The position numbers and the translations under genes are program-made. Positions 14,399 through 58,300 of a stretch of DNA of 64,000 nucleotides are shown here, piece after piece (position 1 is the stretch's first letter; the number at the start of each line of letters is the position of its first letter). Source of the DNA: Odiellus spinosus. Taxonomy: Eukaryota; Arthropoda; Arachnida; Opiliones; Phalangiidae. The notes beneath the pieces are model-generated. The model did no database searches, was not told the origin of the DNA, and saw nothing but the letters and a program-made list of their open reading frames with translations. Location: contig OY987227.1 in NCBI GenBank assembly GCA_963920705.1, positions 15,587,434 to 15,651,433 on the forward strand, in the 5' to 3' direction.

Positions 14399-14830
14399 AA
14401 CCTTGGAATTAGGTTTAGTGAAATTTGCTTCATAAATGTTGTAATTAGGCTTAGTGAAATTTAGTTAATAAATGTTGTAATTAGGCTTAGTGAAATTTAG
14501 TTAATAAATGTTGTAATTAGGCTTAGTGAAATTTACTTTTTAAATGTTGTACTTAGGCTTATGAAATTTACTTCATAAATGTTGTAATTAGGCTTAGTGA
14601 AATTATCTCCATAAATGTTGTAATTAGGCTTAGTGAAATTTACTTCATAAATGTTGTAATTAGGCTTTGTGAAATTTACTTTTTAAATGTTGTAATTAGG
14701 CTTAGTGAAATTTACTTCGTAAATGCTGTAATTATGCTTTGTGAAATTTACTTTTTAAATGTTGTAATTAGGCTTAGTGAAATTTACTTCATAAAGGTTG
14801 TAATTAGGCTTAGTCAAATTTAACTCATTA
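14399..14830 (+). repeat. 36-bp tandem repeat, about 12 copies
   Basis: The unit is about 36 bp: GTAATTAGGCTTAGTGAAAT followed by TTACTTCATAAATGTT. Copies vary by point changes (CTTCATAA or CTTTTTAA variants) and one unit is short. It is AT-rich with no open frame of note. Confidence 0.85.
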
Positions 14831-17746
14831 ATTTTGTAATAGGCTTAAGAAAAGTTTAGCAAAATATAAATAAAATATAAATAAAAATTACATTGGAAGT
14901 CATGTTATTTATTTAGTTAAAAACCTGCTTTGAAATCGCCACTGCAGATTATAACTTCTGTTAGAAACTTTGAAATCGCTATTGATGATAAAATTAGGCT
15001 TAGTAAAAGTGTTATTTCATCGTCCCTTTATAAAAATTACGAGGAATTTTGAGAAAGGAAACCAAAAAGATACAATATAATAGTATACGAGCAAGCATAA
15101 GGGGCGTGTAACCGTCCGTGTCTAGTTCCCACCATTGTTACGTTACTCTTATATAAGATCTACAAACTTGATATAGATAGGTATATATATCACTACTTTA
15201 ACGGTTTTTGTTACTTCATATACACCCTCCCCGTTTCTTCCCCCTTTTCTATAAAGTTACAAAGTAATAGATGAAAAGATTAAACAATATCCTTTAAAAT
15301 GTCGTGATTTTCAGAAAGAAATAAATCTTGAAGAAAGTTCACGAACAGACTCTCTTTGAACCCTAAGCTTTTGTCTCGTTAAAATATCTTATTTAAAAAT
15401 TGAAATGGAACCTGAAAAGTTCAAAATAGCGTAAATGTTTAAAAGTTAAATATAAACACAAATGAATAAATGATCCTTCATGTAACTGACATTGAGCTCA
15501 TCAGTTGTTATTTTTTGTTAACTAAACTTTTTAAGGAATGGATTAGAATTAACTCGATTTACCTTTTCAATTCACCTTGAATAAATTTAAATTTTCTCGA
15601 GACCACCCTCTAACTAAAAGGTTTTCCGCGCGTGCGTTGTTATTACGTAAAAAATAAAATGCGTTTTCGCTACTGTATAAATACTCATTATCAAAAAACT
15701 CTTTAAATTCGTAAAACGAACAAAAGCCGAATGCAGAAATGTTATCGAAGGAAAAAGATATAACTTTTATGTGGGCGATTATTAATTCACCCACTCGAAG
15801 CCTTCTATTTAATTCAATCTTGTACCCTGGATAGATTATCTGTAAGTTGAACTACCGTGTACTTCGTGTCGGTGCCATTAGACTCGTAAAGAGTCCACAC
15901 ACAAAATTTGAAATCAGATAAAAATGTTTTTAAAACCAGCTTTAAAGTTATAGGGAGAGCTTTAAGCGAACAATGTATAAAATCCGAGCTTTATCTATAA
16001 TTTCTTCATTTGGGACTAATTTATAGATTAAACGATACCTAATTTACAACATTTTGCAAATATGGAACTTCCAAGCTTACTCAAAATATTTATTTTTCGA
16101 ATTTACGTGATTTTACGCATATTTTGGGTTAAAATATCCTATGATTAAAATTCCCGGAATTTTCCCAATAGATTTCCATGTTTTCGCGCCGTTTTTCATA
16201 ATGTTTTTCCAAATATTTCACAAAAATTCTTTGTTATTTCGTCCAAAAAAGAATCGAAATTTTCCTAATTTTTTCTCAAATATTTCTTAATTTTATTTTT
16301 GGCCCCAAAATAAATATTTTTCTCATATTTTAGGTATACTTCACAGTATAAGTATAAATTTTAATTAAATATAATTAAAATACAAATTAAAATACACTAG
16401 CATAGTCTCCTAAATCTTTTACAAAAAAAAAATATTTGAACGCTAAATATTTTAAAATATCCTCTGATTAATATAAAAATGGGTTTTCTCCCATTTACCG
16501 AAATTTCCCTATAGATTTTCCAGTGTTTTCCAAGCGTTTTTCCGATTTATTTCCAAACATTCAATATCTTTCACAAATTCGTTGTTATTTCCTCGTAATT
16601 TCCCAATTTTTTCCTAAACTTTCCCCAAAATATCTCCCCGTGACCCCGTCTAAATCTGAATTAAATATAATTAAAATACAAATTAATAACTAGATCTTTA
16701 TTATAGTTATATACGTTTTTCAAAGCTATAATTGAACGCTATCTATATGTATATTTTAGCACAAAGTTAATTAGGGCATGGGCCTATCTCGTTTCTTGAT
16801 AAAGACTTTTTTTTTCTTATACTTGGCAAAAATATATCGTATTTTGCAGGTGGGCGAATGCCTATCCCGTTCACAACGAAAACATCGTGGGCTGCCTTTC
16901 GTTTTAAAAGTGTGGGATTAAAGGCGATGATCGTTTCAGACACTGACACTTTTACCTGACAATACTTAACTAAGCATTTTTAAACAAGATATTTAACTAG
17001 CAAATAATGGCAAGTTAAAGTGTCGGTTTGATGTTCGAAGAGTGGGCCATCGACCGCAACCGCGTAATAAACTTGGGAAAAATTTGGGGCCCATTTCAAT
17101 TTGAAAATGCAACGCCTATATGAAGGTGGACGACCGTTATCAATCACGGTTACGCGTAACGTCTAAACATTACTGGACTTAACTTACCGCTTATTGCATT
17201 CCGCTTATGTAGATTTAGAAGGGTCATCATTTGCCGGATGGATGGAACTGATGGTCATTTTTACCGGTTGTATATAGTTTAAAGTTTTACAAGAAAAAAT
17301 ATTCGGTAAAAGGATTTTGAACTTATAATGCGGGGGCTTTAAAACTTCATTTCTTCCCGGTCAAAAATCTCCAAAAATCTCTTTTAATTAATCTTTTCCT
17401 AAATATTTATCATCGCGGCGCCTTCTTTTCTATAACCTTCGTATATATGTAAAAAGACCTACGCGAAATTCAACTCCAAGTTCATTTCTATAAAGTTGTT
17501 GAAAGATTATTATAAGCAAAACTACTTTTAAACTTTAAGAGGCTAAACATTACGCGTTAATCCGCCTTCGATTAGCTTTATTATAAACCACTCTTGAATT
17601 AAAAAAAATATTTGGGGCAATAACACCAAATTATTTGTTGTAAACTTTAAAATTTGGGTGTTTGTTTTGGTTTCCTCGGGATTATTTTCTCACGATTTAA
17701 TTTCGAAGTTTACCGGGTTTACAAAATATTTTTTGGTATATTTTTA
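14831..17746. other. AT-rich non-genic stretch
   Basis: No gene is recognised. It contains TATA-like stretches (about 15150 and 15180) with no credible ORF after them, and runs of short TTTTCC/AATTTT words at 16080-16630. Confidence 0.45.
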
Positions 17747-21906: not shown

Positions 21907-22437
21907 AACGCGGATACACACAGACCTGTTTTTACGCGTTTCACGCTCGTGAACTCATAGAAGTACCATTAGCACGCGCGAGCGAGGTGCAAACCACTCT
22001 AGAAAAATTTTGTACACCTGATTCCAGATTCATTTGATTGTCAGTGATTCCGAATCAATTCGCGTGATTCCGAATTGATTCGTGATTCGCGTGATTCCGA
22101 ATCGATTCTCGTGATTCCGAATCGATTCTCGTGATTCCGAATCGATTCGCGTGATTCCGTATCGATTCGCGTGATTCCGTATCGATTCTCGTGATTCCGA
22201 ATCGATTCGCGTGATTCCGAATCGATTCGCGTGATTCCGTATCGATTCTCCTGATTCCGAATCGATTCGCGTGATTCCGAATCGATTCGCGTGATTCCGT
22301 ATCGATTCTCCTGATTCCGAATCGATTCGCGTGATTCCATTTAGTTTGTACACCTGATTCCAAGAGTGGTTTGCCCATTGCCCCTCGCGCGTGACCGTGA
22401 AAAGCGTGAAAATAGGTCTGTGTGAATCCGGCTTTAG
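21907..22437. mobile_element. Foldback element enclosing a 20-bp minisatellite
   Basis: The left flank (CGGATACACACAGACCTG, TTTTACGCGTTTCACGCTCG, GTGCAAACCACTCT) and right flank (AGAGTGGTTTGC, CCGTGAAAAGCGTG, AGGTCTGTGTGAATCCG) are inverted copies of roughly 80-120 bp. Between them (22041-22340) lie about 15 units of CGTGATTCCGAATCGATTCG with CTCGTG and CCGTATCG variants. Open minus frames across the repeat are artefacts. Confidence 0.65.
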
Positions 22438-31469: not shown

Positions 31470-31722
31470 AAATTCCTATAATTTCTTAAATTTTTCTGTA
31501 ATTTCTTACATTTTTCTATCATTTCTTACTTTTTTCTATAACTTCTTATATTTTTCTATAATTTCTTATATTTTTCTATAATTTCTTATATTTTTCTATA
31601 ATTTCTTATATTTTTCTATAATTTCTCATATTTTTCTACAATTTCTTATATTTTTCTACAATTTCTTATATTTTTCTATAATTTCTTATATTTTTCTATA
31701 ATTTATATTTTTCTATGGTGTC
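31470..31722 (+). repeat. 20-bp tandem repeat, about 12 copies
   Basis: The unit is ATTTCTTATATTTTTCTATA with ACATTTTT and TTTCTACA variants; it is pyrimidine/AT-rich on the plus strand. Confidence 0.85.
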
Positions 31723-33240
31723 TCATATTTTAAATTGCTTCTTTATTTCTATAGTTTCTGATATTTTAAAGAATTTTCTTATATTTTTCAATAATTTTTA
31801 TGAATAATCTCCATAATATATGTCTCCCATAATATATGTTAAAAATAAACTTTAATATCATTTAAAACAATTTAATTTTGATGGTCATTCAGACTTATAA
31901 AATATTTTAGATTGTTTTAATCTTCATGGCCGGTCCCTTTTTTGGGTTTCGAGTAGCATCTAGCCAAAAATTGACTTTAGAAAGCTTTCTCCCTTAATAA
32001 ATCCTCCCTTTTTCTCTCGTACATATAGAAGCGGGTAAAGGGGGTTCATTTTGGGCATAAAAAACCAAGGAGACAACAATTCGGGAAGGGGGGGCAGAAG
32101 AAGATTATTATGGAAGAGGAACATCGTAACATCAGCCTGCTAGAGCCAGTGACCCTTTGAAGTAATCTTTCTCGGAGGGGCAATAATACAGACTTCATTC
32201 AAACCACTTTAGTTTTCAGCAGGAAAGAAACTAGACCTATATGCCATTAACTTATTATTATGATCAAAATCTACTGAAAAAAAACCTTTGTACGTACTCT
32301 AAAAGTTGTTAATTTCCCGGAAAAAGTAAAATGAGGAAAAATTTCCAGAAATTTCTACTTCGAAGATTTTTAAAAGCTCTATAATAATTTAAAAGTACTG
32401 TAAATTACAGCTCCCTGATTTTTTGACAACACACTCCCATAGCTCATAAGCAAATTCCTATCAAACTCTAATTTGAAGTGTTGTTAATTATTAGAATTAA
32501 TTAAGGACTAAAATAAGATATTTATAAAAAAGGTTAAACTTAAAATCATAAATTGTTCTTGAATAATGTATGACAATAAATATTGAAGGAGTTATAGTAG
32601 CCATGATGGGTAGTAAATGACGCAAATAAATTATTAATGAAAGGAAGAAATAAGGTTTTTAACGTGCCACGCAGTAACACCAATCATTAAGATTAATTCG
32701 TATAATAAACTCATTGTATAATGAAAACAAAATAATTTATTTAATGTTTGTAAAAAAATAATAAAATACCGTATTTTATTTTCATTTATAGGCCTATAAA
32801 ACCAGGCATTTTTTCCTTTCAGTGATAATATATAACCAATTTAATTTATTAGTTATCTTTAATTACTAAAGTCAAATATATTTGTTAAGACACGAATGAG
32901 ATTAAACTTAATAGAAGGGAGATCTCCTCTGCTTAAATTTATTACACATAACCATTTTATCATTTTAAATATTTGCTTTACTTTATTTCGACTATGCATA
33001 GTCCAAAAAAGAGCTCCACCCTTCAACGCCTAACAAAACTTTCTAAACATCTTATTGGCTGTCGATGTTGCTGGCGGGAGTGGTAAAAACATATATTTGG
33101 TTGCCCTGCACCATAACAACATTATCACAACAGTAAAAAATAATAATAATCGGCATATTCGAAAGTTTTGTAAACAAAAAATTAGAAAAACTACGTCATA
33201 AAGTTTAAAAAATATATATTTGGAATTATAATTATGGAAA
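31723..33240. other. AT-rich non-genic stretch
   Basis: No gene, RNA gene or structured repeat was recognised. Confidence 0.4.
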
Positions 33241-41927: not shown

Positions 41928-42110
41928 CTCCAGTCAAATAGATTAATATAAAAAATAAAGGAATAGAAATCATCTATATCACGGACGAAATCCGGGATTG
42001 AATTGAATATAAATAATTGTAGGAAAACTTTTCGGGAGAAAACCAAACCAGCGCGTTACCAATCACTCAACAAAGATGTGTCCGATTTATACATTTTCTC
42101 ATCCAAAATC

Positions 42111-42290
42111 GTTCATACTATAGAGACTTTGAAAAAGTTTTTCACCCTTTTGGAAAGGTCAAATGGTAAATTTTTAAGTTAAAATGTAAAGATCCAGGGT
42201 TAAAATATTAAATTTATTAGCTTTAAAAGTTGATTTTAACATTCGAAACAGTTTGAAAACGGTTTCAGTCTCTTTAATGAGTCTCTATAA
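42111..42290 (+). mobile_element. Diverged ACGTTCACAC-family MITE
   Basis: CGTTCATACTATAGAGACTT at the left and TGAGTCTCTATAATGAG at the right are imperfect inverted ends. GAAAGGTCAAATGG and GTTTGAAAACGGTTTC are internal words of the family. Confidence 0.45.
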
Positions 42291-42817
42291 TGAGAAAACA
42301 AGCCCTTCACACGCAGCTCTTGATCTATTTGCAGTTAAATTCAATTAAAAACCTCTTACAAATTTATAATTTTCGGGGTTTCGTTCATACACGATACTAA
42401 TTCACCATTCGCTTACTAGAAATAGCACAGGCAAAATTTAACTACTATGTTACATATTTTGTATCAATTGATCGTCGATTGCATACTATGCATTTAATTT
42501 TTGTATATTGTGTATTTTATACCGGCAACCTCATAGTATGGGCTATACCTCCGTGATTGCCTGTAACGTAGTTGCGAAATAAATATTACTATCATTATTA
42601 ATAGTTAATTAAAATTATTTATCAATAATTTATACGTTTATTTATTATTATTTTTTTGTAGACGTTTTAAAATTCATAGGGCATACTCTTCGGTTAATTG
42701 ATGGGGGCTGTTTTTTTTAATAGACCCCGCCCTATAAAATATTCAGTTTTATATATTATAGGGTTTTCGGATCGGAGAAGGCATGCGCAAACTACACGAC
42801 ATATGAAAAGCTTATTA

Positions 42818-42841
42818 GGATAAACACGTTCGTGTTTATCC
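42818..42841. repeat. Perfect 11-bp hairpin (GGATAAACACG / CGTGTTTATCC)
   Basis: Two perfect 11-bp arms around a TT centre. On the minus strand it begins 6 nt after the stop codon of the candidate exon 42848-42966. Confidence 0.75.
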
Positions 42842-42847
42842 CTTTAT

Positions 42848-42915
42848 CTAAACTCGAATTTCATCAGAAACCGTAATGTCTTTTCCAATGGACCCGCGGC
42901 GCTTGATAACTGAAA

Positions 42916-42946
<31 letters not shown>

Positions 42947-42966
42947 TTCCCTCTTCCCACCGTCCA
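42848..42966 (-). CDS. Candidate terminal exon with Thr repeat
   Basis: On the minus strand, AATTCAG is followed by 38 open codons and TAG (2 leading bases). The peptide has VDGGKRE, a run of 10 Thr codons from an ACG microsatellite, then KRRGSIGKDITVSDEIRV at the end. RRGS would suit a basophilic kinase, and the C-terminal I-R-V resembles a class II PDZ ligand; both are inference from short motifs. The open frame extends to 43033 without a clear start. No upstream exon or family was found, so this may be a microsatellite artefact. Confidence 0.3.
42918..42950 (+). repeat. (GTC)n microsatellite, about 10-11 units
   Basis: An uninterrupted CGT/GTC run; it reads as poly-Thr in the minus-strand exon candidate. 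Confidence 0.85.
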
Positions 42967-43033
42967 CTGAATTCGAATTAATACAGACAAAGGTACTTTT
43001 GAAAAAATTTGATAAGACTTCGTTCGGGTACAA

Positions 43034-43480
43034 GAGTATCTCTAGTTAAACACAGATTTCAATAATGAAATGTTGATTAAGTATATGAAGTAATAGAAAG
43101 TAAGGTGCCTGAATGGGTTACAAAAGGGTGAGATCTTAAGCTTAGCCGAGCTTTACTAATTGCTTCAAAATGATAAACAAAATTTTATTTCTTAAACAGT
43201 AGAATGATAATGAATATCCATAGAATTCGAGTTAATAGAGAGACAGATGGCTGTATGGGTGACGAAAAGGGTAAAACATATAACTAGCCGAGCTTTATTA
43301 ATTGGCTTTAAATTGATAAACAAAAATTGATTTTATTAAACAGTTGATAAGCTTTTTTTAATGGCATTTTTTATCGTTAACGGAAAATTGCATTTATTGG
43401 GTTCTTTTACTAGGGTAGACCTCTTCAGCCGTCTAATTTTGACTATTATGTCATATCATGAGTATCCCATGATATTCACC
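43034..43480. other. Non-genic stretch with a short duplication
   Basis: TTAGCCGAGCTTTACTAATTG (about 43141) and CTAGCCGAGCTTTATTAATTG (about 43283), with following TTGATAAACAAAA, form a diverged direct pair about 140 bp apart. No gene is recognised. Confidence 0.4.
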
Positions 43481-44025
43481 CTAATTCACCGTAATTAAAA
43501 AATCATTTGATTTTTTAACTTTAATAATACATCTCTTCTCGGCCTATATAAACGAGATTAGCATATTCAGTACTCAAAGATGCACCGTCTTTGATTGTTT
43601 AGGCAATCGTTTCTCACCTATATTTCGGTGATAAGAGACCTATTTCTCACGATCTTTTGGGTAGAGTACTCGAATAAAGCGAGGCGATTGAATGTAAATC
43701 GCATTTAATTTAATATATTAAGTCACTGTAAAAACATTTCACAATGAGAGTTCTAGGGATTAAATATCACTTGAGTTGGACTTCATATCCTGCCAAGTGC
43801 TCGATTACACATGAAATTTATAGTTTAACGTTTTCAATCTCTACTCTATTTCTTAAAATACTTGAGTTTTGCGACTAGGATGTGCTTTAGATCCAATAGC
43901 TTCGTCATTACTACTACGTAATAATGTTGCTATTGAGTAGTTGGCCAATTATTGAAGTCTGTATCTAAAGCACGTCTAACTTAAGTATAATAAAAAATAA
44001 AGATTTAGAATGTTAAATAGGATAT
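43481..44025 (+). repeat. Segment U copy 1 (promoter present, ORF deleted)
   Basis: This is the first copy of the segment that alternates with the 16-bp arrays. It keeps the TATA box (TATATAAA, 43545-43552) and the 3' part with AATAAA. Compared with copy 2 it lacks 67 nt after ATGCACCGT, so its ORF reads only four codons. It also lacks about 17 nt near 43496 and about 16 nt after CGCATT. Confidence 0.85.
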
Positions 44026-45936
44026 ACACTTGAAACCAACGACACTTGAAACAAACGACACTTGAAATCAACGACACTTGAGACAAACGACACTTGAAAC
44101 AAACGACAGTTGAAACAAACGACACTTGAAACAAACGACACTAAAACCAACGACACTTGAAACCAACGACACTTGAAACCAACGACACTTGAAACCAACG
44201 ACACTTGAAACCAACGACACTTGAAACCAACGACACTTGAAACCAACGACACTTGAAACCAACGACACTTGAAACCAACGACACTTGAAACCAACGACAC
44301 TTGAAACAAAAGACACTTGAAACCCACGACACTTGAAACCAACGACACTTGAAACCAACGACACTAGAAACCAACGACACTAGAAACCAACGACACTTGA
44401 AACCAACGACACTTGAAACCAACGACACTTGAAACCAAGGACACTTGAAACCAAGGACACTTGAAACCAAGGACACTTGAAACCAAGGACACTTGAAACC
44501 AAGGACACTTGAAACCAACGACATTTGAAACCAACGACATTTGAAACCAACGACACTTGAAACCAACGACACTTGAAACCAACGACACTTGAAGCAAACG
44601 ACACTTGAAACCAACGACACTTGAAACAAACGACACTTGAAACCAACGACAGTTCAAACAAACGACACTTGAAACAAACGACACTTGAAACCTACGACAC
44701 TTGAAACCAACGACACTTGTAACCAACGACACTTGTAACCAACGACACTTGAAACCAACGACACTTGAAACCAACGACACTTGAAACCAACGACACTTGA
44801 AACAAACGACACTTGAAACAAACGACACTTGAAACAAACGACACTTGAAACAAACGACACTTGAAACCAACGACACTTGAAACCAACGACTCTTGAAACC
44901 AACGACACTTGAAACTAACGACACTTGAAGCCAACGACACTTGAAACCAACGACACTTGAAACCAACGACACTTGAAACCAACGACACTTGAAACCAACG
45001 ACACTTGAAACCAACGACTCTTGAAACCAACGACACTTGAAACCAACGACACTTGAAGCCAACGACACTTGAAACCAACGACACTTGAAACCAACGACAC
45101 TTGAAACCAACGACACTTGAAACCAACGACACTTGAAACCAACGACACTTGAAACCAACGACACTTGAAACCAACGACACTTGAAACCAACGACACTTGA
45201 AACAAAAGACACTTGAAACCCACGACACTTGAAACCAACGACACTTGAAACCAACGACACTAGAAACCAACGACACTAGAAACCAACGACACTTGAAACC
45301 AACGACACTTGAAACCAACGACACTTGAAACCAAGGACACTTGAAACCAAGGACACTTGAAACCAAGGACACTTGAAACCAAGGACACTTGAAACCAACG
45401 ACATTTGAAACCAACGACATTTGAAACCAACGACACTTGAAACCAACGACACTTGAAACCAACGACACTTGAAGCAAACGACACTTGAAACCAACGACAC
45501 TTGAAACAAACGACACTTGAAACCAACGACAGTTCAAACAAACGACACTTGAAACAAACGACACTTGAAACCTACGACACTTGAAACCAACGACACTTGT
45601 AACCAACGACACTTGTAACCAACGACACTTGAAACCAACGACACTTGAAACCAACGACACTTGAAACCAACGACACTTGAAACCAACGACACTTGAAACC
45701 AACGACACTTGAAACAAACGACACTTGAAACAAACGACACTTGAAACAAACGACACTTGAAACAAACGACACTTGAAACCAACGACACTTGAAACCAACG
45801 ACTCTTGAAACCAACGACACTTGAAACTAACGACACTTGAAACCAACGACACTTGAAACAAACGACACTTGAAACAAACGACACTTGAAACAAACGACAC
45901 TTGAAACCTACGACACTTGAAACCAACGACACTTTA
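44026..45936. repeat. 16-bp minisatellite array A, about 119 units, variant-rich
   Basis: The unit is ACACTTGAAACCAACG. Array A is the most diverged of the three, with AAACAAACG, CCAAGG, TTGTAACC, GAAGCC and GACTC variants. An internal higher-order repeat is visible: the AAACAAAAGACACTTGAAAC stretch at 44304 returns at 45200 (896 bp, 56 units), and AGTTCAAACAAACG at 44651 returns at 45531 (880 bp, 55 units). The one-unit difference lies in the CCAAGG cluster (5 versus 4). Long minus-strand open frames across it are by-products. Confidence 0.95.
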
Positions 45937-46021
45937 AACCCTAATTCACCGTAATTAAAAAGTTGGCATGATTTTCTTATCATTTGATTTTTTAACTTTA
46001 ATAATACATCTCTTCTCGGCC

Positions 46022-46049
46022 TATATAAACGAGATTTGCAGGTTCAGTA
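46022..46049 (+). promoter_or_regulatory. TATA box and initiator of segment U copy 2
   Basis: TATATAAA at 46022-46029 and TTCAGTA at 46043-46049. The initiator A is about 24 bp from the TATA start, slightly short of the usual 28-32 bp. Copy 1 has the same TATA at 43545; copies 3 and 4 lack this part. Confidence 0.45.
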
Positions 46050-46056
46050 CTCAAAG

Positions 46057-46146
46057 ATGCACCGTACCAATAAGTGGTTTACGTTAGCTTTTAAAATTGT
46101 GGCGAACCCTCTCGTTTGTGCAATGGTGACGTCTTTGATTGTTTAG
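46057..46146 (+). CDS. Candidate 29-aa hydrophobic peptide in segment U
   Basis: ATG is the first start codon after the initiator. The ORF has 29 codons and ends at TAG. The peptide starts MHRTNKWFTLAFKIVA and continues NPLVCAMVTSLIV: a short basic head then a mostly hydrophobic stretch, like a leader or single membrane segment. Copies 3 and 4 (49500-49589 and 53561-53650) keep the ORF intact with a single residue change (Lys6 to Gly, AAG to GGG). Copy 1 has lost most of it. No family is recognised. Preservation of the frame in three of four copies may reflect recent duplication only. Confidence 0.35.
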   Translation: MHRTNKWFTLAFKIVANPLVCAMVTSLIV

Positions 46147-46584
46147 GCAATCGTTTCTCACCTATATTTCGGTGATAAGAGACCTATTTCTCACGATCTT
46201 TTGGGTAGAGTACTCGAATAAAGCGAGGCGATTGAATGTAAATCGCATTACCTAGAAATGTGGCCAATTTAATATATTAAGTCACTGTAAAAACATTTCA
46301 CAATGAGAGTTCTAGGGATTAAATATCACTTGAGTTGGACTTCATATCCCGCCAAGTGCTCGATTACACATGAAATTTATAGTTTAACGTTCTCAATCCC
46401 TACTCTATTTCTTAAAATACTTGAGTTTTGCGACTAGGATGTGCTTTAGATCCAATAGCTTCGTCATTACTACTACGTAATAATGTTGCTATTAAGTAGT
46501 TGGCCAATTATTGAATTCTGTATCTAAAGCACGTCTAACTTAAGTATAATAAAAAATAAAGATTTAGAATGTTAAATAGGATAT

Positions 46585-49492
46585 ACACTTGAAACCAACG
46601 ACACTTGAAACCAACGACACTTGAAACCAACGACACTTGAGACAAACGACACTTGAAACCAACGACACTTGAAACCAACGACACTTGAAACCAACGACAC
46701 TTGAAACCAACGACACTTGAAACAAACGACACTTGAAACCAACGACACTTGAAACCAACGACACTTGAAATCAACGCCCTTGAAACCAACGACACTTGAA
46801 ACCAACGACACTTGAAACCAACGACACTTGAAATCAACGCCCTTGAAACCAACGACACTTGAAACCAACGACACTTGAAACCAACGACACTTGAAACCAA
46901 CGACACTTGAAGCCAACGACACTTGAAACCAACGACACTTGAAACCAACGACACTTGAAACCAACGACACTTGAAACCAACGACACTTGAAACCAACGAC
47001 ACTTGAAACCAACGACACTTGAAACCAACGACACTTGAAACCAACGACACTTGAAACCAACGACACTTGAAACCAACGACACTTGAAGCCAACGACACTT
47101 GAAACCAACGACACTTGAAACCAACGACACTTGAAACCAACGACACTTGAAACCAACGACACTTGAAACCAACGACACTTGAAACCAACGACACTTGAAA
47201 CCAACGACACTTGAAACCAACGACACTTGAAACCAACGACACTTGAAACCAACGACACTTGAAACCAACGACACTTGAAACCAACGACACTTGAAACCAA
47301 CGACACTTGAAACCAACGACACTTGAAACCAACGACACTTGAAACCAACGACACTTGAAACCAACGACACTTGAAACCAACGACACTTGAAACCAACGAC
47401 ACTTGAAACCAACGACACTTGAAACCAACGACACTTGAAACCAACGACACTTGAAGCCAACGACACTTGAAACCAACGACACTTGAAACCAACGACACTT
47501 GAAACCAACGACACTTGAAACCAACGACACTTGAAACCAACGACACTTGAAACCAACGACACTTGAAACCAACGACACTTGAAACCAACGACACTTGAAA
47601 CCAACGACACTTGAAACCAACGACACTTGAAACCAACGACACTTGAAACCAACGACACTTGAAACCAACGACACTTGAAACCAACGACACTTGAAGCCAA
47701 CGACACTTGAAACCAACGACACTTGAAACCAACGACACTTGAAACCAACGACACTTGAAACCAACGACACTTGAAACCAACGACACTTGAAACCAACGAC
47801 ACTTGAAACCAACGACACTTGAAACCAACGACACTTGAAACCAACGACACTTGAAACCAACGACACTTGAAACCAACGACACTTGAAGCCAACGACACTT
47901 GAAACCAACGACACTTGAAACCAACGACACTTGAAACCAACGACACTTGAAACCAACGACACTTGAAACCAACGACACTTGAAACCAACGACACTTGAAA
48001 CCAACGACACTTGAAACCAACGACACTTGAAACCAACGACACTTGAAACCAACGACACTTGAAACCAACGACACTTGAAACCAACGACACTTGAAACCAA
48101 CGACACTTGAAGCCAACGACACTTGAAACCAACGACACTTGAAACCAACGACACTTGAAACCAACGACACTTGAAACCAACGACACTTGAAACCAACGAC
48201 ACTTGAAACCAACGACACTTGAAACCAACGACACTTGAAACCAACGACACTTGAAACCAACGACACTTGAAGCCAACGACACTTGAAACCAACGACACTT
48301 GAAACCAACGACACTTGAAACCAACGACACTTGAAACCAACGACACTTGAAACCAACGACACTTGAAACCAACGACACTTGAAACCAACGACACTTGAAA
48401 CCAACGACACTTGAAACCAACGACACTTGAAACCAACGACACTTGAAACCAACGACACTTGAAACCAACGACACTTGAAACCAACGACACTTGAAACCAA
48501 CGACACTTGAAACCAACGACACTTGAAACCAACGACACTTGAAACCAACGACACTTGAAACCAACGACACTTGAAACCAACGACACTTGAAACCAACGAC
48601 ACTTGAAACCAACGACACTTGAAACCAACGACACTTGAAACCAACGACACTTGAAACCAACGACACTTGAAGCCAACGACACTTGAAACCAACGACACTT
48701 GAAACCAACGACACTTGAAACCAACGACACTTGAAACCAACGACACTTGAAACCAACGACACTTGAAACCAACGACACTTGAAACCAACGACACTTGAAA
48801 CCAACGACACTTGAAACCAACGACACTTGAAACCAACGACACTTGAAACCAACGACACTTGAAACCAACGACACTTGAAACCAACGACACTTGAAACCAA
48901 CGACACTTGAAGCCAACGACACTTGAAACCAACGACACTTGAAACCAACGACACTTGAAACCAACGACACTTGAAACCAACGACACTTGAAACCAACGAC
49001 ACTTGAAACCAACGACACTTGAAACCAACGACACTTGAAACCAACGACACTTGAAGCCAACGACACTTGAAACCAACGACACTTGAAACCAACGACACTT
49101 GAAACCAACGACACTTGAAACCAACGACACTTGAAACCAACGACACTTGAAACCAACGACACTTGAAACCAACGACACTTGAAACCAACGACACTTGAAA
49201 CCAACGACACTTGAAACCAACGACACTTGAAACCAACGACACTTGAAACCAACGACACTTGAAGCCAACGACACTTGAAACCAACGACACTTGAAACCAA
49301 CGACACTTGAAACCAACGACACTTGAAACCAACGACACTTGAAACCAACGACACTTGAAACCAACGACACTTGAAGCCAACGACACTTGAAACCAACGAC
49401 ACTTGAAACCAACGACACTTGAAACCAACGACACTTGAAACCAACGACACTTGAAACCAACGACACTTGAAACCAACGACACTTGAAACAAA
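46585..49492. repeat. 16-bp minisatellite array B, about 182 units, highly homogeneous
   Basis: Nearly all units are identical ACACTTGAAACCAACG. Variants are mostly single GAAGCC units at scattered positions, some about 240 bp (15 units) apart. Two shortened AATCAACGCCC units near the left edge shift the frame. The right junction is AAACAAACTCAC. Minus-strand frames of 887-992 codons cross it; they all read the same 16-residue cycle and are not credible genes. Confidence 0.97.
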
Positions 49493-49861
49493 CTCACAGA
49501 TGCACCGTACCAATGGGTGGTTTACGTTAGCTTTTAAAATTGTGGCGAACCCTCTCGTTTGTGCAATGGTGACGTCTTTGATTGTTTAGGCAATCGTTTC
49601 TCACCTATATTTCGGTGATAAGAGACCTATTTCTCACGATCTTTTGGGTAGAGTACTCGAATAAAGCGAGGCGATTGAATGTAAATCGCATTACCTAGAA
49701 ATGTGGCCAATTTAATATATTAAGTCACTGTAAAAACATTTCACAATGAGAGTTCTAGGGATTAAATATCACTTGAGTTGGACTTCATATCCTGCCAAGT
49801 GCTCGATTACACATGAAATTTATAGTTTAACGTTCTCAATCTCTACTTTATTTTTTAAAAT
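49493..49861 (+). repeat. Segment U copy 3 (promoterless and 3'-truncated)
   Basis: It begins at CTCACAGATGCACCG, so the TATA part is missing and array B takes its place. The ORF (49500-49589) is intact. The copy stops at TTTTTTAAAATACTTGA, where its own TACTTGAG merges with the array unit ACACTTGAAA. The poly(A) part is missing. Confidence 0.85.
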
Positions 49862-52800
49862 ACTTGAAACCAACGACACTTGAAACCAACGACACTTGAA
49901 GCCAACGACACTTGAAACCAACGACACTTGAAACCAACGACACTTGAAGCCAACGACACTTGAAACCAACGACACTTGAAACCAACGACACTTGAAACCA
50001 ACGACACTTGAAACCAACGACACTTGAAACCAACGACACTTGAAACCAACGACACTTGAAACCAACGACACTTGAAACCAACGACACTTGAAACCAACGA
50101 CACTTGAAACCAACGACACTTGAAACCAACGACACTTGAAACCAACGACACTTGAAACCAACGACACTTGAAACCAACGACACTTGAAACCAACGACACT
50201 TGAAACCAACGACACTTGAAACCAACGACACTTGAAACCAACGACACTTGAAACCAACGACACTTGAAACCAACGACACTTGAAACCAACGACACTTGAA
50301 ACCAACGACACTTGAAACCAACGACACTTGAAACCAACGACACTTGAAACCAACGACACTTGAAACCAACGACACTTGAAACCAACGACACTTGAAACCA
50401 ACGACACTTGAAACCAACGACACTTGAAACCAACGACACTTGAAACCAACGACACTTGAAACCAACGACACTTGAAACCAACGACACTTGAAACCAACGA
50501 CACTTGAAACCAACGACACTTGAAACCAACGACACTTGAAACCAACGACACTTGAAGCCAACGACACTTGAAGCCAACGACACTTGAAGCCAACGACACT
50601 TGAAGCCAACGACACTTGAAACCAACGACACTTGAAACCAACGACACTTGAAACCAACGACACTTGAAGCCAACGACACTTGAAGCCAACGACACTTGAA
50701 ACCAACGACACTTGAAACCAACGACACTTGAAACCAACGACACTTGAAACCAACGACACTTGAAACCAACGACACTTGAAACCAACGACACTTGAAACCA
50801 ACGACACTTGAAACCAACGACACTTGAAACCAACGACACTTGAAACCAACGACACTTGAAACCAACGACACTTGAAACCAACGACACTTGAAACCAACGA
50901 CACTTGAAACCAACGACACTTGAAACCAACGACACTTGAAACCAACGACACTTGAAACCAACGACACTTGAAACCAACGACACTTGAAACCAACGACACT
51001 TGAAACCAACGACACTTGAAACCAACGACACTTGAAACCAACGACACTTGAAACCAACGACACTTGAAACCAACGACACTTGAAACCAACGACACTTGAA
51101 ACCAACGACACTTGAAACCAACGACACTTGAAACCAACGACACTTGAAACCAACGACACTTGAAACCAACGACACTTGAAACCAACGACACTTGAAACCA
51201 ACGACACTTGAAACCAACGACACTTGAAACCAACGACACTTGAAACCAACGACACTTGAAACCAACGACACTTGAAACCAACGACACTTGAAACCAACGA
51301 CACTTGAAACCAACGACACTTGAAACCAACGACACTTGAAACCAACGACACTTGAAACCAACGACACTTGAAACCAACGACACTTGAAACCAACGACACT
51401 TGAAACCAACGACACTTGAAACCAACGACACTTGAAACCAACGACACTTGAAACCAACGACACTTGAAACCAACGACACTTGAAACCAACGACACTTGAA
51501 ACCAACGACACTTGAAACCAACGACACTTGAAACCAACGACACTTGAAACCAACGACACTTGAAACCAACGACACTTGAAACCAACGACACTTGAAACCA
51601 ACGACACTTGAAACCAACGACACTTGAAACCAACGACACTTGAAACCAACGACACTTGAAACCAACGACACTTGAAACCAACGACACTTGAAACCAACGA
51701 CACTTGAAACCAACGACACTTGAAACCAACGACACTTGAAACCAACGACACTTGAAACCAACGACACTTGAAACCAACGACACTTGAAACCAACGACACT
51801 TGAAACCAACGACACTTGAAACCAACGACACTTGAAACCAACGACACTTGAAACCAACGACACTTGAAACCAACGACACTTGAAACCAACGACACTTGAA
51901 ACCAACGACACTTGAAACCAACGACACTTGAAACCAACGACACTTGAAACCAACGACACTTGAAACCAACGACACTTGAAACCAACGACACTTGAAACCA
52001 ACGACACTTGAAACCAACGACACTTGAAACCAACGACACTTGAAACCAACGACACTTGAAACCAACGACACTTGAAACCAACGACACTTGAAACCAACGA
52101 CACTTGAAACCAACGACACTTGAAACCAACGACACTTGAAACCAACGACACTTGAAACCAACGACACTTGAAACCAACGACACTTGAAACCAACGACACT
52201 TGAAACCAACGACACTTGAAACCAACGACACTTGAAACCAACGACACTTGAAACCAACGACACTTGAAACCAACGACACTTGAAACCAACGACACTTGAA
52301 ACCAACGACACTTGAAACCAAGGACACTTGAAACCAAGGACACTTGAAACCAAGGACACTTGAAACCAAGGACACTTGAAACCAAGGACACTTGAAACCA
52401 AGGACACTTGAAACCAACGACACTTGAAACCAACGACACTTGAAACCAACGACACTTGAAACCAACGACACTTGAAACCAACGACACTTGAAACCAACGA
52501 CACTTGAAACCAACGACACTTGAAACCAACGACACTTGAAACCAACGACACTTGAAACCAACGACACTTGAAACCAACGACACTTGAAACCAACGACACT
52601 TGAAACCAACGACACTTGAAACCAACGACACTTGAAACCAACGACACTTGAAACCAACGACACTTGAAACCAACGACACTTGAAACCAACGACACTTGAA
52701 ACCAACGACACTTGAAACCAACGACACTTGAAACCAACGACACTTGAAACCAACGACACTTGAAACCAACGACACTTGAAACCAACGACACTTGAAACCA

Positions 52801-53552
52801 ACGACACTTGAAACCAACGACACTTGAAACCAACGACACTTGAAACCAACGACACTTGAAACCAACGACACTTGAAACCAACGACACTTGAAACCAACGA
52901 CACTTGAAACCAACGACACTTGAAACCAACGACACTTGAAACCAACGACACTTGAAACCAACGACACTTGAAACCAACGACACTTGAAACCAACGACACT
53001 TGAAACCAACGACACTTGAAACCAACGACACTTGAAACCAACGACACTTGAAACCAACGACACTTGAAACCAACGACACTTGAAACCAACGACACTTGAA
53101 ACCAACGACACTTGAAACCAACGACACTTGAAACCAACGACACTTGAAACCAACGACACTTGAAACCAACGACACTTGAAACCAACGACACTTGAAACCA
53201 ACGACACTTGAAACCAACGACACTTGAAACCAACGACACTTGAAACCAACGACACTTGAAACCAACGACACTTGAAACCAACGACACTTGAAACCAACGA
53301 CACTTGAAGCCAACGACACTTGAAGCCAACGACACTTGAAACCAACGACACTTGAAACCAACGACACTTGAAACCAACGACACTTGAAACCAACGACACT
53401 TGAAACCAACGACACTTGAAACCAACGACACTTGAAACCAACGACACTTGAAACCAACGACACTTGAAACCAACGACACTTGAAACCAACGACACTTGAA
53501 ACCAACGACACTTGAAACCAACGACACTTGAAACCAACGACACTTGAAACAA
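49862..53552. repeat. 16-bp minisatellite array C, about 230 units, highly homogeneous
   Basis: This is the largest array. Units are identical except for clusters of GAAGCC (about 50550-50690 and 53307-53327) and one run of six CCAAGG units (about 52318-52405). It ends with the same AAACAAACTCAC junction as array B. The minus strand is open in all three frames for over 1,230 codons because the unit has no stop in any minus frame. Confidence 0.97.
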
Positions 53553-54086
53553 ACTCACAGATGCACCGTACCAATGGGTGGTTTACGTTAGCTTTTAAAA
53601 TTGTGGCGAACCCTCTCGTTTGTGCAATGGTGACGTCTTTGATTGTTTAGGCAATCGTTTCTCACCTATATTTCGGTGATAAGAGACCTATTTCTCACGA
53701 TCTTTTGGGTAGAGTACTCGAATAAAGCGAGGCGATTGAATGTAAATCGCATTACCTAGAAATGTGGCCAATTTAATATATTAAGTCACTGTAAAAACAT
53801 TTCACAATGAGAGTTCTAGGGATTAAATATCACTTGAGTTGGACTTCATATCCTGCCAAGTGCTCGATTACACATGAAATTTATAGTTTAACGTTCTCAA
53901 TCTCTACTTTATTTTTTAAAATACTTGAGTTTTGCGACTAGGATGTGCTTTAGATCCAATAGCTTCGTCATTACTACTACGTAATAATGTTGCTATTAAG
54001 TAGTTGGCCAATTATTGAAGTCTGTATCTAAAGCACGTCTAACTTAAGTATAATAAAAAATAAAGATTTAGAATGTTAAATAAGAC
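53553..54086 (+). repeat. Segment U copy 4 (promoterless, 3' end complete)
   Basis: It starts at the same CTCACAGATGCACCG junction as copy 3. It holds the intact 29-codon ORF (53561-53650) and the full 3' part, including the GTGCTTTAGAT / ATCTAAAGCAC pair and AATAAA near 54050. After TGTTAAATA it passes into unique DNA where copies 1 and 2 pass into array. Confidence 0.85.
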
Positions 54087-54231
54087 ATACGAAACGGAAA
54101 TTGATGTCGGCGAGTTAAATAAACGGCCACATACTTCTGGTCTCCATAATTATGTTCTCTTGCTTTAAAGAATTGTTTCGCTTTCCATTCTGATTTTTTG
54201 TCGATGCGATTCAATATTATAAATTTAATCT

Positions 54232-54680
54232 CTAGTTCGGTCTAGCCCGTCCCTCTTGTAATATTTTAGGTAAGGCTAGGTTAGTTAATCCCTCGACCTC
54301 CCCCGTCCATCTGGTAATCTTTAAGGTGAGGTTAGGTTAGTTAATCCCTCTAATTAGCCAATCCCTCCAACTAGTTAATCCTTAGCTCGGGCTATTTGTA
54401 ATATTTTAGGTAAGGCTAGGTTAGGTTAGTTAATTCCTCGAATTAGCCCATCGTTCCAACTAGTTAATCCCTCGGGTTCCCCATTCCATCAAGTAATCTT
54501 TAAGGTTAAATTAGGTTAATTAAACCCTGGAAATAGCCCATCCCTCCAACTAGGTAATCCCTATAACTCGGGCTAACCCGTTCCTCTTGTAATATTTTAG
54601 GTAAGATTAGTTTAGGTTAGTTAATCAATTGAACTAGCCCATCTCTGTTTTACAACTTAGGTAAGGTTAGTTCTCTGCCT
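54232..54680 (+). repeat. TAGGTTAG-rich tandem repeat, units about 140-190 bp
   Basis: GTAATATTTTAGGTAAGG recurs at about 54258, 54398 and 54585. Each is followed by TAGGTTAGTTAAT and CATCC-TCCAACTAG-TAATCC phrases. Shorter GTAATCTTTAAGGT half-units lie between. Confidence 0.7.
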
Positions 54681-54839
54681 TTCGAAATTTGTACCAGGGT
54701 CTCAATTACGAATAGATTGAAGCCTCAATTAAACGCTTTAATTTTTATTCAGCATTAGTAAGAATTAAGGTTCATAAACCTATAAAGCAAAATAGTGAAA
54801 TGTGGAAAAGGTGTATATTTTTGGTGAAAAAAGGACAGA

Positions 54840-55350
54840 AATTATACAAAAAAGAGGTTGCTTCGCACCCTTAAAAAAACTCTTTATCTAACTCGAATCA
54901 AACCCGTGAAGGGACAGAAATTATTTGTTAGAGAAAGAGCAATTTCATATCTTTAAAATTATAGTTAGTAGATTTAGTCTACTACTTCAAAGATTTTATT
55001 ACTATTATATATTTTCCAAAAAACGGATAAAGACGACCTAGTTAACCTTCCTCTCCCAATGATGTTAATTTTAAATTCTATCAGTATCACTAATAAAATT
55101 AGCTAAAGATGGAGTTCCTTTAATGTATATATATATTTATCATTAGTCCTAGGTCGTCTTTATCCGTTTTTTAGAAAATATATAATAGTAATAAAATCTT
55201 TGAAGTAATAGACTAAATCTACTAACTATAATTTTAAAGATATGAAATTGCTCTTTCTCTAACAAATAATTTCTGTCCCTTCACGGGTTTGATTCGAGTT
55301 AGATAAAGAGTTTTTTTAAGGGTGCGAAGCAACCTCTTTTTTGTATAATT
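54840..55350. repeat. Near-perfect inverted repeat, 202-bp arms, 107-bp spacer
   Basis: Left arm 54840-55041 and right arm 55149-55350 are complementary with about two mismatches. The spacer (55042-55148) is AT-rich. A 15-bp phrase AGGACAGAAATTAT/AGGGACAGAAATTAT lies just outside and also inside the left arm. There are no target duplications or known transposon tips. The transcript would form a long hairpin. Confidence 0.9.
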
Positions 55351-58300
55351 ATCATTTAGAGGGAACAAACAATTTTAAAACTGGCCCACTGGGGTGTCAT
55401 TTTATTAAACTTGAACAGCTGTGAGGTTGGATTTTTATCAAAACCCAAATATCATACAAAATCCAACGTGATAACCGAATTCACGAAACAAACTCCACTA
55501 GAAATCATGAAATATCAATAAAAATAACAAAATCTCACATGAATTTATTTACGCCCACTTGTTGTTCGGGAATTTGTGGTTACTGTGGTACTTTGTAAAA
55601 ATGGACAAAGCCAAATTTGCAGTTAAATTTTAATTTTTTAATTGAAATGATAAATATTCTCCCAATTACGAAAGTGAGGGAAATTTTCAGCCTTGCAATG
55701 GCTTGATAGAAATCACGAAATCTCACTAGAAATGCACTTACATAAAATCTATACACCTACTTTAAAATACTTAGTAACTGATTCCAGCCTTAATTAGTAA
55801 TTATGTATTCACTTTAGTACAGAAAAAGCTACATATTTTTACACGGATTGCGTATAATGAAAGATCCCACTAGAAATCACAGAATCACTTGAAATAATGA
55901 AAAATCACTTCAAAACTCATGAAAAATTCCATAGATTTACTTGAAATAAAGAAAAATATTTGAGAGAAATTGAACGAAGTTCGGTTTGATTTATAAATCA
56001 CTTAGAATTTTTTTGATAAATATCCTCCAACCCCACGATTGAATCAAGTGTATAGAGGCGACAAAGGGAGTGTATAATAGCTTTCCTGACGCTAAATCCT
56101 CTGCCTTAAAATTTTGGACAGTATATTTATCTCTATCTCTTCGTGGTCTAGCTCTCTGATGGAAATAATTCACCGCCGGGTGATTAAATATGGGAGGGTT
56201 AAATGCTTTTTTTAAAAAGATAGAAAACTATAAGGGGCGATCTCTATAAAACGTCAAATGAGTTCCGAAATTTCCCGTCTATTTCATTTAGAGATAACAC
56301 GACCAATCTTTATTAAGAAGACTTCTAAAACACTTGAAATATCCGTTATTGTTAGAGAGTAATCTACCTTTGTATTTACTGATATTCCCGAGTGGTAGAG
56401 CTTCCAATTCTCCTATATCTTAGGAGATCCCTTCGTGTCTGACCACACCCTATGGTGATATAGCCTTATACACGATCGAATATTTCCACGCGTCCGGATA
56501 AGTATTAGAACCTTTATTGGTCAAATATAAATAATATAGTATAACATGCCACCAGGAGATATGTTTTAAAAATAAAATGACAGTTTAGTTAAATTATTTT
56601 GGTATTGATCATTATCGTCGGATAATCGTGGGATTATTGTGAAAACTGATATGAAAGGTACTTGGCTAAGCTGGTTTCATTAATGTCTGGGATTCTCACG
56701 AGTCACAAATGGAAAAAAACTTTAAACAACGATACATATGGCAAAGAAAAATTACCTGAACAGAAAAAAATAATCGCTCTTTTCGAAATTTTTTAAAATG
56801 AAAATTCTCCGCAATATTACGTCATCAAAATGGTCGCGTGGCTATTATAGAGCCTACAGTGAATTCTCGCCCATTTTTCCATTTTGATATGGTTGCTTGG
56901 TGCGGTCTTTTTCGTGAAAGTACTTCAAAACTTATCTTTAATTACTCGATCGGGTGATTAAATATAGACCCTTGCTCGCTTAAATCATGATTAAATTGTT
57001 TTTAAAATGATTACCGTACCTAATTCAAGAAAGCATTGATTATTTTTGATTTGACCCGATTAAATAAGATTAAATTTACATTCATGGACGAATTAAATGA
57101 TCTGCCCCTCGATTTTAAGTTGATTTCGAAATAATTGTATTTCCAATTTTAATGGGTTAACTCCCACAAACAAATTTTTTTTTTCTAATTATTTCTCAAG
57201 CATCTAATTATTATCCAATTAAGCTGTGTATACCATTTAATAATTTGGCCAACTATAAATATTTAAAAAAATTAGATAAGACACATCACCGATATTTTAA
57301 AAAACCAGACGATTAAAAACTACTTAAATTATGAAATAAAAATATTACTGTATTACTAATAAAATTTATATACGGATCATTAATACACCCTAAAACGAAC
57401 AATGAGGTAATCAACCAATAAAAATATACGCCAGCGACTCTCAAATAAGGAACTCCATCGGATATCTACGTCATGCCAATTTTCCAATCAAACTATAGCT
57501 ATATAGAAGTATTTAAATTACTAAAAGACTTAGAACTGGCCTCGCTTTAAAAATAAAAAAATAAAAATAAGAAAGAGAAAAAGACAAAACACACAGGATG
57601 AATGAATTAAAAACCTGCCTTGAAATAAACTAAACTTAAAAGGGGTGGAGACCCGTATATTCTTTTCAACAAAAAGGGAATTGGTTATATACAGGAACGT
57701 ATTTTAAAATCAGAAGAAAGAGAGCTCTTGAATATATCAGCATACGTAAATACTAAATAGTGATTTGAAAAAAAAAAAAAAAAAAGAACTTGGGGTGTGT
57801 GTGTGTAAATTCGAACGAAACGAGCCATTCTCTCGCGATGCCTAAATGCAAATCGAAAACCATTGTTAAGAGCGTTTCTGATTCGTTAATATTTATCGTT
57901 ACCAAGAATTGTTCTTATTTCAAAACCAAAGATATACATAGAAACCTGACTTACAATTTTTAACAGGTGTGTGCAGCTTAGGTTCTTTCATTTGTTAAAA
58001 GTTTATAGGCCTCTTAATCGTTATTTGATTTTACTGACAGCTATCTAGATTTTAGAGTTCAAAAACATGTAGTGTAGAAGGGTGTAATTCACCTGCTAGA
58101 TGAAAACTGATTTAAATGTTTTAGTAAAAAAGTGTTCGTGTAAATTTTTCCGTTCAAAACTATCTGACGATATCATGTTTTCCATGAACATGATTAACTA
58201 TATTTACAGTTTCTCCATGCTATCATTTATCGTATGATATGTTAAACAGAAACACCAAATATCATGGTACAATTCCCACACCATACTAATTATTAGTTTG

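Follow-up and report, generated by a model that had tools for sequence, protein, structure and literature searches.

Minisatellite arrays and partial self-copies inside a swollen copy of a putative Helitron-like element in Odiellus spinosus

The window analyzed here is a stretch of 64,000 nucleotides of Odiellus spinosus DNA (assembly GCA_963920705.1, contig OY987227.1, positions 15,587,434 to 15,651,433 of the forward strand). At window positions 43481 to 54086, a sequence-only reading had noticed a segment, U, that occurs four times and alternates with arrays of a 16-bp minisatellite. It had suggested a small peptide or non-coding RNA (ncRNA) gene family evolving by minisatellite-mediated rearrangement, in which parts are exchanged at fixed junctions. 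The rearrangement part of that proposal stood, as the same junctions recur at other loci; the gene part fell, as U proved to be a slice of a longer non-coding element, here named E. We consider it probable that the locus is one copy of this high-copy, non-coding, rolling-circle-type (Helitron-like) element, that the arrayed composite has spread, and that U is a passenger in it. The layout had been thought not to be a standard one for a satellite or transposon, but it is a transposon layout, that of an element with internal tandem repeats. The arrayed element is ordinary in kind and unusual in size and layout.

Element E and its copy in the window

The 443-Mb genome (286 contigs) was searched with U2, the fullest copy of the segment (query 46022-46584). 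There were 1,106 first-look candidates, and all 40 that were scored had expectation values below 1e-267 and were 97-100% identical to the query along most of its length. From these matches, 28 loci were retrieved, including four duplicates (L001 corresponds to the window, and L006, L007, and L008 equal L009, L010, and L011). The exact 32-base dimer of the 16-mer was missing at all 22 other distinct fetched places, which had been chosen without visibly clustered hits. A genome search for U without the 16-mer, proposed in the sequence-only reading, was thereby answered: in the array-free loci, U was found as an internal stretch of E, with no boundary at its ends.

E is an interspersed non-coding element of about 2.67 kb with constant ends. 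Its coordinates were measured on copy L010:1883-4553 (2,671 bases, of which three on the left and one on the right are host DNA), and in this reference numbering U2 is E761-1403. Repeats of several kinds occur in E: a TCG microsatellite, a direct repeat of 143 bp in its left part, imperfect repeats at approximately E1543-1995 and, at its right end, inverted arms of 203 bp. No stop-to-stop frame of at least 80 codons was present in L046, which holds a full E copy, or in L047. The tail motif of E, allowing up to two mismatches, occurred 1,326 times genome-wide, and the reversed control occurred 0 times. Because many copies carry the tail motif twice, in opposite directions, the copy number of E was put at about 700-1,300. 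A reading of U as a long terminal repeat (LTR) or as part of a terminal-repeat retrotransposon in miniature (TRIM), for which its TATA, initiator, and AATAAA motifs are LTR-like, was rejected: array-free E has one U, without flanking U repeats.

On the plus strand of the window, the whole array-bearing copy of E spans 12,534 bp (42815-55348, TTAGG...GTATAA) and is flanked by a host A on the left and a host T on the right; homology to array-free copies stops on both sides. Because E homology runs through 42815-55348, with ends like those of other copies, the interval 43481-54086 represents the interior of an element swollen to 12.5 kb. The bounds first proposed were thus too narrow, U1 and U4 continuing into the larger element up to 42815 and 55348. 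At the 5' end lies a hairpin (GGATAAACAC-GTTC-GTGTTTATCC, 42818-42841; fold of -8.3 kcal/mol with DNA parameters in the reference copy), a stretch present in 22 head rows (duplicates included), in some of them with base changes or small insertions. It is followed by a 5' asymmetric subterminal inverted repeat (CTTTATCTAAACTCGAAT, 42842-42859), which matches the reverse complement of the 3' end, and by the left part of E (42860-43480) with the TCG microsatellite at 42916-42946. By alignment, the 3' end region (54840-55348) comprises two inverted arms, each about 203 bp long (54840-55041 and 55149-55350). It includes the 3' subterminal inverted repeat (ATTCGAGTTAGATAAAG, 55292-55308), located 40 nt before the end of the element (41 nt in the reference copy), and a 3' subterminal hairpin (AGGGTGCGAAGCAACCT, 55319-55335) that ends 13 nt before the 3' end and has six pairs, one mismatch, and a fold of -4.3 kcal/mol.

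Reading and aligning the segments confirmed the order U1-array A-U2-array B-U3-array C-U4, all on the plus strand. Tandem Repeats Finder reported the 16-mer ACACTTGAAACCAACG as a single row at 44026-53554, across U2 and U3, and this repeat lies far above chance level in the window. With the same program and coordinate reading, arrays A, B, and C were placed at 44026-45938, 46585-49492, and 49867-53553. Taken from these lengths, their unit counts are about 120, 182, and 230, so that some 530 copies of the 16-mer lie between four partial copies of U. U1 (approximately 43481-44025) had been described as having the promoter stretch but not the open reading frame (ORF), and alignment agreed: the TATA/initiator stretch is kept, and 64 bp with most of the ORF (E883-946) are deleted. 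U2 (45939-46584, E761-1403) begins CCCTAATTCACCG. U3 (49493-49866, E866 to approximately E1240) is joined to an array at both ends, and U4 (53554-55348, E866-2670) continues through the whole right half of E, as aligned to L010 (window 53553-55350 versus L010 2748-4554: 97.5% identity). Both U3 and U4 do start at CTCACAGATGCACCG directly after the array. U3 is cut at ATACTTGA, and its right join is at ACTTGA, which is common to U and the 16-mer. On the minus strand of the arrays (49855-53646), stop-free frames of up to 1,263 codons were seen that could mislead a gene caller; they are a mechanical effect, because the 16-nt unit has no stop on that strand.

Origin and spread of the arrayed form

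The junction from array to E866, GAAACAAA joined to CTCACAGATGCACC, occurred 14 times at six loci, in every case without mismatch: once each at C2, C11a (C11 at 11.43 Mb), and C13, twice in the window (C3), three times at C11b (C11 at 13.44 Mb), and six times at C6. The junction from E1403 to array, TAGGATATAC joined to ACTTG, occurred 20 times at nine loci, those beyond the six being C3:21.13 Mb, C7:12.02 Mb, and C14:10.76 Mb (C14 with one mismatch). The copy at C2, of about 7 kb, consists of the left end, an array, E761-1403, a second array, and E866-2671; C11a follows the same plan over 21.5 kb. At C6 (22 kb), the left end is followed by five E866-1403 pieces between six arrays and then by E866-2671. 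Judged by junction positions, C11b measures at least 25 kb and C13 at least 21 kb, and both extend past the fetched sequence. At C14, some 1.8 kb of other DNA separates an array from a short second array, after which E begins at E1144, a point at which CACTTGAG is part of U itself. The short matches to the 16-mer at the U3 and C14 joins suggest template switching. Two side observations concern these loci. The DNA between the two arrays inside the C14 composite (L045:65-1890) includes a run of about 40 A, and the approximately 15-kb array at C11:11427509-11442478 (L034, L035, L036) consists largely of diverged unit variants, with no exact 32-base canonical dimer in L034 and L035.

The E883-946 deletion was present in all seven readable left sides (window, C2, C6, C11a, C14, C3:21.13 Mb, and C7). 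The variant GAGACAAACG was found within the next 90 bases at 13 of 16 readable E1403 junctions, and the last 64 array bases were identical at 11 of the 14 array-to-E866 junctions. In FastTree phylogenies of 26 rows each, from which rows with coverage below 85% were excluded (L023 and L025 on the left; L014, L017, and L025 on the right), the left arms of five array-bearing loci formed one clade (support 0.956), as did the right arms of six (0.998). The window, C2, and C11a, which are the loci where the E761 piece was seen, grouped together in both trees (0.768 left, 0.922 right). Outer-arm distances among array-bearing loci were 0-1.1%. The right-arm marker GACATACGAAACGGAAATTGATG, within three mismatches, was found at seven places among the matches listed, all of them array-bearing loci; these matches came from a query with a different string, from which more distant forms would escape. 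No sequence was shared at the junction flanks among the six right and four left ends compared, a comparison that excluded C14, C3:21.13 Mb, and C7. The right flanks of C11b and C6 did match, but the match is inverted, 84-87% identical, and hundreds of bases away and was therefore assigned to a shared repeat.

From the shared deletion, the monophyletic outer arms, and the differing compared flanks, it is deduced that the arrayed form arose once. It most likely spread by transposition, and movement of the composite would be the simplest account of its sites. In midpoint-rooted trees, the left arm of the composite lay inside the L010 group (0.998) and the right arm outside that group (0.948), so the founder may be a chimera of two E copies. 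The smallest mean distance of the right arms was to L013 and L020, both members of the L010 group, which adds no weight to a chimera.

We propose that the 16-bp minisatellite arose at E1403 in one lineage of E and that duplicates of internal segments of E, beginning at E761 or E866, may have come to lie beyond the array. Both the array and the U segments could then have increased in number through slippage, unequal exchange, or re-replication. Carrying its arrays, the composite would have reached at least six unlinked sites by means of the ends of E, with a RepHel protein supplied from elsewhere presumably acting in trans. A bolder version holds that a rolling-circle element moved, in one step, units that range from about 7 kb to 25 kb or more and are largely minisatellite, and that its replication makes the U/array alternation by repeated template jumps at short ACTTGA-type matches. 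It would make the element a self-amplifying satellite maker, and we regard it as doubtful.

Class of E and relation to known systems

E looks like a non-autonomous Helitron-type element. In the reference copy, the subterminal repeats, which lie 27 nt (5') and 41 nt (3') from the respective ends, match as reverse complements in 17 of 18 aligned columns, and their score of 29 was reached by none of 2000 shuffles (best shuffle, 28). The hairpins lie near both ends of E (-8.3 and -4.3 kcal/mol), and in the aligned end rows an A precedes the head and a T follows the tail. L024 sits in a 30-bp tandem array between TTTGATA and TTATTT, and at this one site a target duplication is not required. Head-to-tail copies of E with a period of 2315 were observed in L046:1-3103 (C1:28592400-28595502) and in L047: the first copy is cut at E2328, the next head follows immediately, and unrelated DNA follows the second copy. 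The same spacing of 2315 recurred at four same-strand tail pairs on C1. The genome contains 150 scored matches to Helitron_like_N (PF14214).

Known systems were compared by means of excerpts from five publications (PMC7492417, PMC4067079, PMC5148889, PMC3627910, and PMC3833285). The canonical Helitron1 ends, 5' TC and 3' CTRR, are not those of E, which has TTAGG and GTATAA; insertion between A and T, as in Helitron1, is seen for E, with a 3-bp ambiguity at L024. According to the excerpt, Helitron2 resembles E in having hairpins at both ends, asymmetric terminal inverted repeats, and a 3' repeat upstream of the 3' hairpin (PMC3627910). In contrast, its 5' repeat is placed 0-2 nt from the 5' end, whereas that of E starts 27 nt in, after the hairpin; its target follows TTTT (PMC3627910), whereas E lies between A and T, and no RepHel partner was found for E in the compared part of the genome. 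At the 3' end, E agrees with Helentrons and HINEs, whose subterminal inverted repeat lies 38-60 nt and palindrome 8-35 nt from the end (41 and 13 nt in E), a spacing yardstick taken from the excerpt on mite HINEs (PMC4067079). It departs from them at the 5' end, where their repeat lies 2-4 nt from the terminus (27 nt in E), and in the target, TT rather than A and T. The Proto-Helentron of Phytophthora, as excerpted, shares with E a 5' TT and insertion between A and T, but it ends in 3' CTAG and is coding, whereas E ends in ATAA and is non-coding (PMC4067079). Because of these mixed terminal features, and because no RepHel copy with E ends was seen in the compared part of the genome, we use the label Helitron-like without a subgroup.

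Similar architectures were described in the excerpts for HINE/DINE-1 elements with central tandem repeats, such as Cg_HINE of the Pacific oyster. Like E, it is interspersed and non-coding, with subterminal inverted repeats, a 3' palindrome, a left-module microsatellite (the TCG run in E), and internal tandem repeats, and its arrays spread with the element (PMC7492417). Its units are given as about 140-180 bp, mostly at most five per array and 29.3 in the longest, whereas E has 16-bp units, about 120-230 of them per window array. Unlike Cg_HINE as excerpted, E composites have up to six arrays (C6) that alternate with partial copies of the element's own interior (PMC7492417). Tandem Helitron copies, for which the excerpts offer rolling-circle amplification as an explanation, are head-to-tail with the inner copy cut at its 3' end, like those of E; unlike them, the U/array alternation is confined to the interior and leaves out the ends of the element (PMC7492417, PMC5148889). 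A model quoted in one excerpt holds that more repeats mean less mobility (PMC7492417).

Competing explanations and other features of the window

Several points count against the proposed account. The insertion site of L024 is ambiguous by 3 bp (ATT), which leaves room for a 2-bp AT duplication; L046 and L047, 99.9% identical over 2,697 bp, may represent one event; and the terminal features of E match no single published Helitron subgroup. Among the matches listed, none of the 13 Helitron_like_N matches on C1 lay within 20 kb of a tail motif (tail motif positions were listed for this comparison as far as C2:7.2 Mb), and no RepHel copy with E ends occurred in the compared part of the genome. The joined flanks of the window matched only themselves in the genome search, which returned no empty site. 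The left ends of C11b and C13 and the right ends of C3:21.13 Mb and C7 lie outside the sequence read. Between loci, the arrays share informative tracts of at most 247 bp (pairs with at least six variant bases; 22 pairs run in all), the arrays having turned over too much since to give the array size at the time of movement. A founder with the array directly before E1404 had no exact match, the best being C8:11137576 with two mismatches (16 rows, 3 of them control).

These points leave room for accounts in which the composite did not move or E belongs elsewhere. Under one of them, the sites would already have been occupied by array-free copies of E, into which a single donor introduced arrays through ectopic gene conversion or recombination, while the composite itself did not move. 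Array length and content do vary between loci, and the placement of the left arm inside and the right arm outside the L010 group hints at recombination between copies at least once. However, each outer arm forms a single clade, with the window, C2, and C11a together in both trees, and conversion would need replacement of nearly the whole element at each site, so we hold this account to be quite unlikely. It is likewise unlikely, though the array history would be unchanged by it, that E is a foldback or terminal inverted repeat (TIR)-type element with a 2-bp AT duplication. The 203-bp inverted arms at the 3' end and the ambiguity at L024 would suit such an element, but the outermost ends of E do not repeat each other in inverted form, the repeats that do match lie subterminally, unequally far from the ends and inside the hairpins, and head-to-tail copies exist of which the first is truncated. 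Assembly of long near-identical arrays is difficult, and the U/array alternation could in principle be an artefact of it; with identical junctions at six loci that differ in copy number and, where compared, in flanks, this is highly improbable.

Highly improbable, too, is the reading in which U would be a gene, for a small peptide or an ncRNA, that was amplified along with the minisatellite. A TATA and a TCAGT at the observed spacing appeared in only 13 of 1000 shuffles of U (a pattern picked after seeing it), and the 31-bp TATA-to-initiator stretch had a diversity of 0.004 versus 0.019 for U. However, 124 of 2637 31-bp windows of E were equally low, and within U 67 of 611 were. At least two AATAAA, the number claimed for U2, where three were counted, occurred in 161 of 1000 shuffles of U. 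With both strands counted, 770 of the shuffles had an ATG ORF of 29 codons or more, and 535 had one on the plus strand. Within U itself lies a longer ATG ORF as well, with 44 codons. The 29-codon ORF (46057-46146, plus strand), pointed out in the sequence-only reading, was open in 29 of 31 full-length rows, two partial rows being excluded; after removal of the duplicates L001, L006, L007, and L008, this equals 25 of 27 distinct copies, with two broken, a proportion that we would expect without selection at about 2% divergence. Its distinct changes in 26 of the 27 copies (L016 has a gap) were five synonymous and 19 other, one of them a stop, against a chance expectation of 23% synonymous. In 16 of 19 copies, three being without a script-found head or tail, diversity was 0.024 for the ORF, 0.019 for U, and 0.027 for all of E, and the ORF was at least as variable as 66% of equal-sized E windows. 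The ORF had no Pfam match at expectation values up to 1, and no Rfam family reached its gathering score in 42000-56000 (expectation values up to 1). A snR76 small nucleolar RNA candidate (46322-46421, minus strand) was rejected as a likely chance match, at 23.6 bits versus a gathering score of 55. In addition, E continues without a break past both ends of U in the array-free copies. Neither substitutions nor window diversity gave a convincing signal of selection, whether for the ORF or for the promoter-like stretch. Judged by these sequence comparisons, the ORF appears to behave as neutral sequence and is presumably non-functional; a promoter role of the TATA/initiator stretch in E would be conceivable.

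The mini-gene impression was misleading and is corrected here. The array-bearing copies are close relatives (0-1.1% apart in their outer arms) that have kilobase arrays at several sites, with breakpoints sharp enough for stepwise tracing. Short satellite-like arrays are a known feature of Helitron relatives. If the composite of E did move, it would offer a usable case for testing the seeding of satellites by mobile elements. No comparable layout was met in the titles and abstract openings that searches of an open-licence library listed, which is not a claim that it is unpublished.

Elsewhere in the window, an exon-like open frame on the plus strand (6511-6999) matched the sodium:solute symporter family (PF00474) with an expectation value of 2.1e-14. 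Further tandem arrays, with units of 17-36 bp, were located at 682-1155, 14403-14847, 22044-22338, and 31476-31801.

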